Positions 29,690-33,154 of a DNA stretch of 64,000 bases are shown here, in pieces (within the stretch, counting starts at the first letter, position 1; each line of letters starts with the position of its first letter). The notes beneath the pieces are model-generated. The model had not been told where the DNA came from. It was given only the letters and a program-made list of their open reading frames with translations, and did no database searches. The DNA lies in NCBI GenBank assembly GCA_944381575.1, contig CALWLS010000009.1, forward strand, positions 35,919 to 99,918, written 5' to 3'. This stretch comes from an uncultured Lachnospiraceae bacterium. Its GTDB lineage: Bacteria; Bacillota; Clostridia; Lachnospirales; Lachnospiraceae. Made by a program: the position numbers and the translations under genes.

Positions 29690-31570
29690 TCATTTCTTAA
29701 TATATCTCCAGCTGAGCAGGAGCGCTGAGTTTACGATTACGACTACCGATCCGGCATTGTGCACGAGGGCTCCGAATACAGGATTGAGCACGCCGGTTAT
29801 GGCAAGTATTATGGCGAGGAAATTAAGTCCCAATGAAAAAGCAAGATTAAGCTTTATCGTATTCATCATACGCTTTGCAAGAGCCAGCAGATGCGGGAAT
29901 TCCCTGACATCATCATTTATAAGCGCTATGTCCGCGGCATCCACCGCTATATCGCTTCCGACGCCGCCCATGGCCACTCCAACCTCGGCCTTTTTAAGAG
30001 CCGGAGCGTCATTTATACCGTCTCCTATCATACAGACAGGCTTATCCTCCTCCTGATACTTATCTATATAAGTAAGCTTATCCTCCGGCAGACATCTTGC
30101 ATGTATCTCGTTGATATGGAGCTTCTTTGCCATATTCTGCGCAGCATTCAAGTTATCTCCCGTAAGCAGTACCGGCGTAACTCCGAGGTTCTTTATCTGA
30201 TCTATCATGTCAGGCGCGTCTTCTCTCAGCTTATCCGAGAGAGCTATATAGCCTGCGTAGCTGCCATCCACTGAAACATATGTAAGGGTACAACCCTGTC
30301 CTAAATATTCATTTACATCATCGGTGACATCCACTGTCACTCCGTTTTCCTCGAGCAGCTTATAATTTCCGGCAAGTATGCGCTTTCCGTCAAGAGAAAC
30401 ACTCACGCCGCGTCCCGGTATCATATTGAAGTCCACCGGATCTATAAGCTCTCCCTTGCCCGACTGTCTGAAGGAATTGATTATCGCCTTGCCAAGCGGA
30501 TGCTCTGAAAGCTTTTCTGCCGAAGCCGTATACCTGTACAGCTCATTATCATCAAGGCCTGAGAGAACGCTCTTTACGGCCACAACATTTGGAGTTCCGT
30601 ATGTAAGGGTACCGGTCTTATCAAAAGCGAACATTTTGACCTTTGCAAGTCTCTCGAGGGCATCTCCCTCCCTTACAAGAAAACCGTGCTTGGTGGAGTT
30701 GCCTATGGCTGCCATTATGGCAGTAGGGGTTGCAAGCACAAGGGCACATGGACAGAATACTACAAGTATGGTGACCGAACGGATTATCTCATGTGTCACA
30801 AGATAAGTACCGATGGCAGCCACAAGGGCGATAACAACTATCCATGTAGCCCATCTGTCCGCAATGCCCACTATCTTTGCCTTTCCTGCATCAGCGGACT
30901 GTACGAGCTTTATCATCCTCTGTATGGAGCTGTCCTCACCGACCTTGGTAGCCTTCATCTCAAAGGCTCCGAACTGGTTCACGGTGCCACTGGAGACCTC
31001 GTCTCCCACCGTTTTATCCACCGGCATGGATTCACCTGTCATAACAGCCTGATTTATGGAGGTCTGACCGGAAATGATAACTCCGTCCACGGCAATGCTC
31101 TCACCCGGAAGCACCCTTAAGATATCTCCAAGCTTTATCTGCTCTGCCGGGACTATCCTCTCAGTTCCATCGGTTATTACACGGCCCGTCTTCGGAGTCA
31201 GATGCACAAGCTTTTCAATACCGGCCCTTGCCTTGGCTACAGTAAGGTCCTCCAACAGGGCTCCTATCTGCATGATAAAAGCAACCTCACCTGCCGCGAA
31301 GGTCTCACCGATAAATACCGACGCGATTATGGCCATGGATACCAGCACATCAGCTTTAATGTCAAACTCCGTAACAAGGCCTATAATAGCCTCTAAGATT
31401 ATCGGTAGTCCGCAAAGAATTATGGCTATCCATGCGATTTCAAAGGGAAAAGGCTCGATGCCGAGCAGGTTCATCGCAAGGGCTATTCCGGATATTACTA
31501 TAAACGCTATATCCTTTTTAGTCCCTCCAATCTCCATCAGCTCCTCGAGCTTACCCATAGCTTCCTTCAT
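29690..31570 (-). CDS. Heavy-metal translocating P1B-type ATPase
   Basis: This membrane pump uses an aspartyl-phosphate intermediate to move transition metals out of the cytoplasm. The 626-residue protein has about eight membrane helices, the actuator TGE at 178-180, the transmembrane metal motif CPC at 273-275, the phosphorylation site DKTGT with Asp317, an HP pair in SEHPLGKA, and GDGINDAPAL. There is no N-terminal heavy-metal-associated domain. The last helix carries HNAGS...NS, unlike the MSS pattern of copper pumps or the DxG of zinc/cadmium pumps, so the metal is uncertain. Its own promoter holds a CsoR-type dyad, favouring copper or another CsoR-family ligand. Confidence 0.92.
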   Translation of the reverse strand: MKEAMGKLEELMEIGGTKKDIAFIVISGIALAMNLLGIEPFPFEIAWIAIILCGLPIILEAIIGLVTEFDIKADVLVSMAIIASVFIGETFAAGEVAFIMQIGALLEDLTVAKARAGIEKLVHLTPKTGRVITDGTERIVPAEQIKLGDILRVLPGESIAVDGVIISGQTSINQAVMTGESMPVDKTVGDEVSSGTVNQFGAFEMKATKVGEDSSIQRMIKLVQSADAGKAKIVGIADRWATWIVVIALVAAIGTYLVTHEIIRSVTILVVFCPCALVLATPTAIMAAIGNSTKHGFLVREGDALERLAKVKMFAFDKTGTLTYGTPNVVAVKSVLSGLDDNELYRYTASAEKLSEHPLGKAIINSFRQSGKGELIDPVDFNMIPGRGVSVSLDGKRILAGNYKLLEENGVTVDVTDDVNEYLGQGCTLTYVSVDGSYAGYIALSDKLREDAPDMIDQIKNLGVTPVLLTGDNLNAAQNMAKKLHINEIHARCLPEDKLTYIDKYQEEDKPVCMIGDGINDAPALKKAEVGVAMGGVGSDIAVDAADIALINDDVREFPHLLALAKRMMNTIKLNLAFSLGLNFLAIILAITGVLNPVFGALVHNAGSVVVIVNSALLLSWRYIKK

Positions 31571-31646: not shown

Positions 31647-31675
31647 AATATACCCATACGGGTATTTGTAGTCAA
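31647..31675 (-). promoter_or_regulatory. P-type ATPase promoter with CsoR-like operator in the spacer
   Basis: Reading minus: TTGACT (31670-31675), a 17-bp spacer, TATATT (31647-31652). The dyad ATACCC-ATAC-GGGTAT (31650-31665) fills the spacer and touches the -10. CsoR operators are GC-core dyads flanked by A/T of this kind, and a csoR gene lies 1.3 kb upstream. Repression in the absence of metal is the natural inference. Confidence 0.7.
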
Positions 31676-31723: not shown

Positions 31724-31751
31724 AAAAAGGAACAGCCTTCGCTGTTCCTTT
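31724..31751 (-). terminator. Terminator after the DUF134-NifX gene
   Basis: On the minus strand AAAGGAACAGC-GAAG-GCTGTTCCTTT is a perfect 11-bp stem running into TTTTTG. It ends the upstream gene, so the ATPase depends on its own promoter at 31647-31675. Confidence 0.85.
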
Positions 31752-31822: not shown

Positions 31823-32806
31823 TTACTCCATGTGATGACCGCAGTGATGTCCCTCGCCGTGACCGTGTTCTCCATGATGCTCACAGTGGTGGCCTTCGCC
31901 ATGCTCATGCTCTCCATGATGTCCGCAATGGTGCCCCTCTCCATGGCCATGCTCTCCATGGTGTCCGCAGTGATGGCCCTCTCCATGTCCATGCTCTCCA
32001 TGGTGTCCGCAATGGTGGCCCTCTCCATCTCCGTGTTCTCCGTGATGCTCGCAGTGGGCATTTGGATCAAACTGAAGCGCTCCCGTCATAAGAGCTTCAA
32101 CGGCCTTGTCTGCCTCTCCGCTCACTCCGCCGTAAAGCATGATGCCTGCCTCCCTTAAGGCCTCCTGAGCGCCTCCGCCTATGCCTCCGCAGATCAGCAC
32201 GTCAACCTGATTATCAACAAGGAAGCCTACAAGGGCTCCGTGTCCGCTGCCATTAGTGTCCACGATACTTGTGGTTATTATTTTACCGCCTGCAGTATCA
32301 TAGAACTTGAATTTCTCAGTGTGGCCGAAATGCTGAAATACGTTTCCGTCCTCATAAGTTACCGCGATCCTCATTTGATTGTCTCCTTTTATGATCATTT
32401 TATTATGTTCATTTTTTGATGCGGATAGTTTGCCTTTCATATCCATATCCGTACCGCCATGGCAGCCGCAGTGATGTCCTGACAAGGGAACCGATACGGT
32501 ATCACCGCCGGTATCGTGTCCGCAGCAGCAATAGTCACCACCGCCTATGATGAGCGGCCTGCCGTTTACGATACAGTCAGCGATCTTAAATCTTGCAGAC
32601 TGATATATCTCCGTGGCCGTCGTCCTCGATATCTGCATGCTGTCAGCTGCCTCAGCATGAGTAAGCCCCTTAAGATCCACGAGCCTGATCATTTCATACT
32701 CATCTACCGTGAGTATTACATCTCCTGAAGGCGGGATGCCCTCCGGATAAAACCTGACATAATCCGGCTCGCAAAATACAACTCTTTTCCTCTTTGGCCT
32801 TGGCAT
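31823..32806 (-). CDS. Fused DUF134 HTH - NifX-like domain - His/Cys repeat protein
   Basis: The start is the ATG at 32804-32806, eight bases after GGAG; an ATG six codons earlier has no ribosome site. Residues 1-85 are a DUF134-type helix-turn-helix (MPRPKRKRVV, GLTHAEAADSMQISRTTATEIY). A Cys/His patch follows (YCCCGHD, HHCGCHGG, 92-117). Residues 145-245 are a NifX/NifB-C-like domain (MRIAVTYEDGNVFQHFGHTEKF, ICGGIGGGAQEALREAGI), which in the family binds Fe/Mo cofactor precursors. The tail (251-327) is five to six copies of a 14-residue HHCGHHGEHGHGEG unit, a likely metal-binding sink. An internal ATG at 32372-32374 has AGGAGA seven bases upstream. Precise function unknown; context says metal handling. 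Confidence 0.82.
   Translation of the reverse strand: MPRPKRKRVVFCEPDYVRFYPEGIPPSGDVILTVDEYEMIRLVDLKGLTHAEAADSMQISRTTATEIYQSARFKIADCIVNGRPLIIGGGDYCCCGHDTGGDTVSVPLSGHHCGCHGGTDMDMKGKLSASKNEHNKMIIKGDNQMRIAVTYEDGNVFQHFGHTEKFKFYDTAGGKIITTSIVDTNGSGHGALVGFLVDNQVDVLICGGIGGGAQEALREAGIMLYGGVSGEADKAVEALMTGALQFDPNAHCEHHGEHGDGEGHHCGHHGEHGHGEGHHCGHHGEHGHGEGHHCGHHGEHEHGEGHHCEHHGEHGHGEGHHCGHHME
31826..32056 (-). repeat. Tandem 42-bp coding repeats (His-rich tail)
   Basis: About five and a half copies of a 42-bp unit encode the repeated HHCGHHGEHGHGEG peptide. Copies differ by a few bases, mostly synonymous, plus G/E and H/D changes, indicating expansion by slippage or recombination followed by selection for the His/Cys pattern. 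Confidence 0.85.
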
Positions 32807-32831: not shown

Positions 32832-32871
32832 CGACATATGTCGATTATAGCATGGATCTTTATTTTTTCAA
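32832..32871 (-). promoter_or_regulatory. Promoter of the DUF134-NifX gene with palindrome at the start site
   Basis: Reading minus: TTGAAA (32866-32871), a 16-bp spacer, TATAAT (32844-32849), immediately followed by the perfect palindrome CGACATATGTCG (32832-32843) across the expected transcription start. The promoter lies between the csoR stop and the DUF134 start. The palindrome could be an operator for the DUF134 helix-turn-helix; this is inference. Confidence 0.6.
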
Positions 32872-32878
32872 GCCCGGA

Positions 32879-33154
32879 TCAGCTCATATTTGCAAATCTC
32901 TCAACCGCCTTTGTAAAATCCTCTACTGTTTTATCCGCATTGCCGTGCTCTATGCCGTCCTTGACGCAGTGCTTGATATGGCCCTCAAGTACGATCTGTC
33001 CGCATCTGTGGAGCGCTGACTTGGCGGCATTTATCTGAGAAAGGATATCCTCACACGGTACATCCTCATCTATCATCCTGTCTATCGCCTGCACCTGTCC
33101 GACTATTTTCTTAAGCCTCCGGTGCAGATTATCCTGATCCATGCACTGTATCAT
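32879..33154 (-). CDS. csoR: CsoR-family metal-sensing repressor
   Basis: CsoR is an all-helical DNA-binding protein that releases DNA when it binds Cu(I). The 91-residue protein has LHRRLKKIVGQVQAIDRMI and conserved ligands Cys34, His59 and Cys63, with exactly the spacing of the Mycobacterium copper sensor (Cys36, His61, Cys65), so copper is the best guess; nickel, formaldehyde and persulfide sensors of the same family have other patterns. GGAGG precedes the ATG by five bases. The probable target dyad is in the ATPase promoter at 31650-31665. Confidence 0.93.
   Translation of the reverse strand: MIQCMDQDNLHRRLKKIVGQVQAIDRMIDEDVPCEDILSQINAAKSALHRCGQIVLEGHIKHCVKDGIEHGNADKTVEDFTKAVERFANMS

Follow-up and report, generated by a model that had tools for sequence, protein, structure and literature searches.

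A conserved internal start site suggests two products from one DUF134–NifX–His fusion gene with a predicted operator

A single fused gene of an uncultured Lachnospiraceae bacterium, in which a DUF134 helix-turn-helix is joined to a NifX domain and a His-rich tail, probably gives rise to two proteins: a full-length autoregulator that would act on the palindrome GACATATGTC, and a free NifX–His carrier or buffer that would be started internally. We put the probability of this reading at roughly two in three. It is derived from the window, i.e. the whole stretch of 64,000 nucleotides that was analyzed, and from a comparison with related genes, in which both the internal start site and the palindrome recur.

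The earlier note on this DNA had described one frame containing DUF134, a Cys/His patch, NifX and a repeat tail, and its reading of the architecture and of the coordinates is right, with 327 aa and 5.4 repeat copies (Table 1). The open frame covers 32824-31823 (333 aa), and the start used by the family is its second ATG (32806), from which the protein begins MPRP, the N-terminal consensus among fused relatives, with GGAG 8 bases upstream. DUF134 (PF02001) exceeds the curated score with an E value of 1.2e-23 and 83.9 bits against a cut-off of 27, and Nitro_FeMo-Co/NifX (PF02579) is matched at residues 159-245 of the 333-aa frame, with an E value of 3.5e-19 and 69.3 bits against a cut-off of 26.3. 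The 2.0-Mb draft genome holds one match to each family, both in the fused gene. The predicted structure of the full protein shows two confident domains, a disordered linker (residues 98-134 in the numbering of the 327-aa form, with pLDDT below 50) and a disordered tail, the segment after the NifX domain comprising 77 residues with 32 His and 6 Cys, most of which the tandem repeat encodes. Among known structures, the NifX half is closest in sequence to 1t3v (E 8.6e-18), and its fold matches 2yx6, 1o13, 1p90 and 2wfb with TM-scores by target length of 0.71-0.87; these NifX/NafY/orange-protein structures resemble it in sequence and fold, but were solved as single domains, without a DUF134 half or a His/Cys tail. 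Across the fused-gene locus, zero Rfam families reached threshold.

Table 1. Features of the fused gene and its surroundings (positions in the window).
Feature	Position	Strand	Remarks
CsoR-family repressor gene, upstream neighbour	32879..33154	minus	relative in 2/70 flanks
Promoter TTGAAA-N16-TATAAT, TG before -10	32844..32871	minus	consensus match 11/12; between csoR and the fused gene
Palindrome GACATATGTC (CGACATATGTCG with flanks), predicted DUF134 operator	32833..32842	minus	one base after the -10
DUF134–NifX–His fusion gene	31823..32806	minus	327 aa with the family start; 333 aa if read from the ATG lying 18 nt before it
DUF134 helix-turn-helix	32531..32800	minus	Pfam, residues 9-98 of the 333-aa frame; helices confidently modelled
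Linker with Cys/His patch and internal ribosome-binding site	32375..32530	minus	mostly predicted disordered
Internal Shine-Dalgarno (SD), AAAAGGAGA	32382..32390	minus	ends 7 bases before the internal ATG
Internal ATG, first NifX codon	32372..32374	minus	opens the predicted 183-aa free product
Second CDS, free NifX–His protein, 183 aa	31823..32374	minus	predicted from conservation
42-bp tandem repeat, 5.4 copies	31833..32057	minus	encodes 14-residue His/Cys/Gly/Glu tail units
Perfect 11-bp hairpin, then T; likely terminator of the fused gene	31726..31751	minus	read from the sequence; not in the scan's list
ATPase promoter-like TTGACT-N17-TATATT	31675-31647	minus	consensus match
Palindrome ATACCCGTATGGGTAT	31650-31665	minus	in the ATPase promoter spacer, overlapping the -10 by its first three bases
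P1B-type heavy-metal ATPase gene, downstream neighbour	29690..31570	minus	relative in 3/70 flanks

Concerning the domain junction, an ATG with AGGAGA seven bases before it had been reported at the start of the NifX domain (32374-32372), and this is confirmed: the codon follows AAAAGGAGACAATCAA, whose AGGAGA ends seven bases upstream, and AAAAGGAG lies just 5' of an ATG located precisely at the NifX start. In the predicted structure this ATG corresponds to residue 145, at which, past the disordered linker, the first NifX strand begins. Taking as strong any SD that pairs with the anti-SD at -8 kcal/mol or better, the first set analyzed, i.e. 70 distinct fused genes of one NifX clade from 63 genera and 11 families (own gene included), has ATG at the NifX start in 69/70 and a strong SD there in 69/70, with a mean of -10.4 kcal/mol. 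This is close to the genes' own upstream starts (mean -11.8 kcal/mol, strong SD in 65/69), while in the same 70 genes a strong SD precedes only 33/233 other in-frame Met codons and 81/1107 out-of-frame ATGs. The second set, 74 distinct fused genes from named genomes, shows a start codon at this point in all 74 (72 ATG and 2 GTG) and a strong SD in 73, the one miss being L295, which at -7.8 still reads AAGGAG. The two GTG genes (L289 and L291) keep a start codon although the Met codon is gone. Over both sets, own gene included, start codon and strong SD occupy the exact site in 142/144; these counts run over rows that are related, hence not over independent events. The loss of the start in close relatives, which the earlier note had named as what would speak against it, is thus not what they show (69/70 and 74/74 keep it). 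The start codon and SD are retained beyond what protein constraint would require, so that an internal start yielding a free NifX–His product, as first proposed, is supported, and the reading of one gene with two proteins is strongly supported by this comparison. Neither ATG nor strong SD is found in L093, inside the clade, or in L161 and L195, which are DUF134–NifX fusions outside it; these three are the cleaner negative cases.

It should be noted how the samples were composed. DUF134 relatives over the cut-off occur in 5/25 whole genomes of the genus and 70/200 of the family, and in 62/196, 114/291 and 261/398 in wider circles; those at genus level are fused in 5/5. For the order, class and phylum searches, loci were taken from the best of the matches listed, and 20 further places were added by an open-frame length of at least 244 aa, hence the wider sample is enriched for fusions. 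Left out of the first-set counts were L002 (the own locus again), L019 and L088 (NifX partly or wholly missing), one exact repeat, and four loci with a NifX score below 100, namely L017, which lies at a contig end, L161, L189, where KGENNM occurs a few codons before the model boundary, and L195. The second set derives from the best 80 of 575 loci in named genomes, Blautia and Eubacterium ramulus among them, ranked by similarity to alignment A1, which contains 61 of 69 fused sequences (the near-identical or odd L045, L054, L061, L086, L093, L182, L183 and L185 were left out); 74 remain once 3 loci lacking a fused frame and 3 that exactly repeat first-set genes are subtracted. Because close kin of the first set were kept, the second set is a repeat on other genomes and not a fully independent test.

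Codon usage at the junction carries information of its own. When the last seven linker codons were recoded synonymously, a signal as strong as the observed one, pooled over the 70 genes, was reached in 0/500 recodings; gene by gene the same test is weak (3/49 below 0.05). First-set genes encode the Gly of the KG motif by GGA in 47/53 cases, compared with 845/2172 Gly codons in the rest of their sequence (Fisher 1.4e-13), and the 106 such codons of both sets comprise 99 GGA, 5 GGG, 2 GGT and 0 GGC; a GGC at this codon would break the SD. The best SD core falls into the three reading frames in 108, 29 and 7 of 144 genes, so different residues serve the same RNA signal. Around the internal start codon mRNA structure is weaker than the gene average in 69/70, a difference of which base composition explains part. 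The use of all three frames, the absence of GGC and the 0/500 recodings argue together that selection at the domain junction is acting on the RNA start site.

The history of the fusion bears on the same signal. One group of the NifX tree (support 93) contains 71 fused and 10 unfused rows, the unfused ones nested among the fused and not at their base; the tree has few columns and many open forks. Fission of a fused ancestor is therefore the simpler reading of the split versions, the few columns leaving the direction unfixed. In seven of the 10 unfused rows a separate DUF134 gene lies immediately upstream, at distances from a 23-base overlap to a 185-base gap, and in these seven split versions, which keep the same gene order, each NifX frame has a start with its own SD; the other three (L034, L049 and L097) are outside the DUF134-then-NifX arrangement. 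The statement in the earlier note that the two domains are separate neighbouring genes in many Clostridia needs correction: with 71 rows fused and 10 not, in a sample enriched for fusions beyond the family, fusion is the usual state in the NifX clade.

Three other explanations of the junction were tested, and all are disfavoured by the conservation, codon and recoding evidence. The internal SD could be a pause site for separate folding of the domains of a single protein, and at its position, the junction behind a disordered linker, a pause might assist folding. Pausing, however, would not require a start codon, and ATG or GTG stands at the domain start in 143/144 fused genes, two of them with GTG for Met; moreover, the low mRNA structure around this codon fits initiation, and in the seven split relatives a separate NifX frame follows the matching site, so that we regard pausing as improbable. 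Still less credible is a constraint on the protein itself, for instance a linker contact or a protease site, that would conserve KG(E/D)xxM and leave the SD match as a by-product. KG does occupy codons -5 and -4 in 106/144 genes, but 36 of the 38 genes without it still reach -8 kcal/mol (the exceptions are L093, and L295 at -7.8), and the motif Gly is GGC or GGT in 2/106, although these codons account for 1108/2172 elsewhere in first-set genes. That the start is a functionless relic of a recent gene fusion, as split neighbours with the same ribosome site and the unfixed direction of change in the NifX tree might suggest, is just as hard to credit, given a signal retained in 63 genera of 11 families, above synonymous chance (0/500), and unfused rows that, on few columns, are inside the fused group and not basal.

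The DNA-binding half that the earlier note had proposed gains support from a candidate operator in the fused gene's own promoter. From its position, the palindrome would cover the transcription start of the fused gene. Within 150 bases upstream of the DUF134 start, GACATATGTC is present with at most one mismatch in 54/70 fused genes and with at most two in 61/70 (9/70 promoters of the first set have none within two), against 21/3980 shuffled upstream regions at no more than one mismatch, a shuffle that preserves base composition only, and 7/149 real upstream regions of neighbour genes. The second set shows it at the one-mismatch level in 60/73, and 33/70 fused genes have two or more sites with up to two mismatches. 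Since many copies contain TTGACA, part of this conservation could be that of the promoter itself. In the DUF134 tree, the site (at most one mismatch) occurs in 81/112 rows on one side, where 22/112 rows have none within two mismatches, versus 4/75 in the starred group, and unfused DUF134 rows taken separately give 27/45 versus 4/75. Because the site is common in one part of the tree and rare in the other, we predict that DUF134 binds GACATATGTC in its own promoter. In a sister trio (L004, L005 and L047), CGGTATATACCG replaces the usual palindrome upstream of DUF134, and the presumed recognition helix contains SRSTVQ; SRST is seen in 0/14 other genes compared, 11 of which have SRTT or ARTT. This joint change of site and helix could serve to read the binding code of DUF134.

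Within the 200 genomes of the family, a 20-letter form of the site is found in 23, with a single match for the reversed control, and of the 25 places where it occurs, 20 are no more than about 750 bases away from a DUF134 match. It precedes what reads in translation as a NifX-type gene at L249 and L253, both near DUF134, and at L238, which is not; at L254 it stands before a MinD-type ATPase (named from its translation), and at L231 and L235 before membrane or unassigned genes, read likewise from translations. The occurrences before NifX-type genes and the MinD-type ATPase hint at a small DUF134 regulon. Permease-like genes are close to the L238 site. Two other exact palindromes in the own genome were considered as sites and rejected, as they lie inside open frames and look like chance, the backwards control also giving 2.

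Both products might be made and GACATATGTC be read by another regulator, with a different role for DUF134, a possibility that agrees with the fact that DUF134–DNA binding is not reported in the open-licence literature searched. We consider this unlikely, because the site tracks the DUF134 tree, whether the genes are fused or not, although their neighbourhoods differ, and because of the 20/25 places close to a DUF134 match. A little less likely again is the scenario of the earlier note, in which the gene would belong to a Cu/Ni/Zn module run with CsoR and the P1B ATPase. The three genes are indeed adjacent and on the same strand at the own locus, and the tail is rich in His and Cys, but in flanks of up to about 3 kb, own locus included, CsoR is found at 2/70 loci and the ATPase at 3/70, hence the pairing is local and its use as a clue to function does not generalize. 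Furthermore, separate promoter-like sites and a hairpin lie between the fused gene and the ATPase, which has a promoter match of its own. The palindrome ATACCCGTATGGGTAT in that promoter has what we take to be the likeness of a CsoR operator, and therefore the ATPase is probably under CsoR control, apart from the fused gene. No neighbour of the fused gene is conserved, the largest recurrent cluster reaching 5/58 loci (12/70 were dropped from this count because the gene caller had put an overlapping ORF in the fused gene's place). This commonest neighbour, three of whose five cases are close kin, looks from translations like an Mrp/NBP35 ATPase; it hints at clusters, Fe-S or heterometal, as the ligand and speaks against the Cu/Ni/Zn module. 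Overall, the earlier interpretation is supported for the internal start and the DNA-binding half, and not for the CsoR/ATPase pairing as a functional clue.

Returning to the reading of one gene with two products, the full-length protein, with DUF134, NifX and the His/Cys tail, would bind GACATATGTC in its own promoter and most likely repress it, repression being preferred to activation because the site overlaps the promoter. Binding of a metal or cluster by the NifX/tail half would then change DNA binding or repression, while the ribosome-binding site at the domain junction would independently make the free NifX–His half, a putative carrier or buffer for a metal or an Fe-S/heterometal cluster. 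The sequences themselves show the domains, the conserved internal start, the conserved palindrome and its concentration in one part of the DUF134 tree, whereas the making of both proteins, the role of DUF134 as the binder, repression and the nature of the ligand are inferred. As to the ligand, the NifX fold and the Mrp-like neighbours favour Fe-S/heterometal clusters, and the His/Cys tail allows Cu, Zn and Ni.

Internal initiation that yields two proteins from one gene is already known, e.g. for Cas11 in type I-B, I-C and I-D CRISPR systems, where Cas8/Cas10-Cas11 genes make Cas11 by internal translation, as established by western blot and mutation (PMC11899642). There too, an in-frame internal start frees the C-terminal part as a protein of its own; the difference is that Cas11 is a subunit of the same complex, whereas the product considered here is a putative metal or cluster carrier predicted from sequence. 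Also comparable is MrpORP, in which a NifX/ORP domain is joined to an Mrp/NBP35 ATPase (NCBIfam NF041136; PMC6345978). It has the same domain as C-terminal partner and likewise occurs in anaerobes, but its partner is an ATPase and here it is a helix-turn-helix. The fused protein itself is not an MrpORP, scoring 79.3 bits against a cut-off of 450 for NF041136 and matching only model positions 250-364 of 365. The Cas11 internal-translation paper cites McBride et al. 2020.

MrpORP-type fusions were tried as a negative control for the internal start and failed as such, since NifX fusions to partners other than DUF134 carry an in-frame start with a strong SD within four codons of the domain start in 8/13 and 5/7 cases. 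This makes 13/20, most of them MrpORP-type by our reading and some near-duplicates (L137 and L223 are the same sequence from the same genome), and is a further likeness to the present gene. Carriers of such a junction start are L124-L126, L137, L212, L217, L224, L337, L339, L340, L343 and L344, mostly Mrp-type by translation.

A broader proposal, which we hold tentatively and at somewhat less than even odds, is that the single gene forms a complete feedback circuit, in which the full-length protein would be a ligand-sensing self-repressor and the internally started half both the effector and a competing sink for the same ligand, with the internal ribosome site fixing the proportion of the two; in Clostridia more generally, NifX/ORP domains joined to DUF134 or Mrp ATPases would tend to retain a ribosome site of their own, and so yield a free carrier beside the fusion. 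The signature shared by many MrpORP-type fusions suggests such a wider rule, as a lead from few rows, some of them near-duplicates.

In the open-licence literature, judged by title and the start of the abstract, no paper on the function of DUF134 was found, and UPF0251, presumably its UniProt name, appeared there only in a mutation table. Searches of the same literature gave nothing on NifX together with DUF134 and, among the matches listed for GACATATGTC, none on DUF134 by title. As far as the matching text goes, the DUF134 hits in PMC10434189 and PMC7970244 are other numbers, DUF1349 and DUF1345. Hence, the gene family, the operator and the pairing of regulator and carrier were not found in the open-licence literature searched. 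If the reading of two products and an operator is true, DUF134, a domain of unknown function, would gain a function in the form of a testable operator, and the gene would clearly exemplify how internal initiation lets one bacterial gene supply a regulator as well as its effector, an arrangement kept across many genera of Clostridia. Annotation would be expected to record the long product only, in which case proteome and gene-family work would miss the free carrier.

A final point of notice concerns L019 and L088, which are DUF134 genes whose NifX part is partly or wholly gone in frame and which retain the His/Cys tail; their genomes each hold an intact fused copy as well (L059 and L027, respectively).
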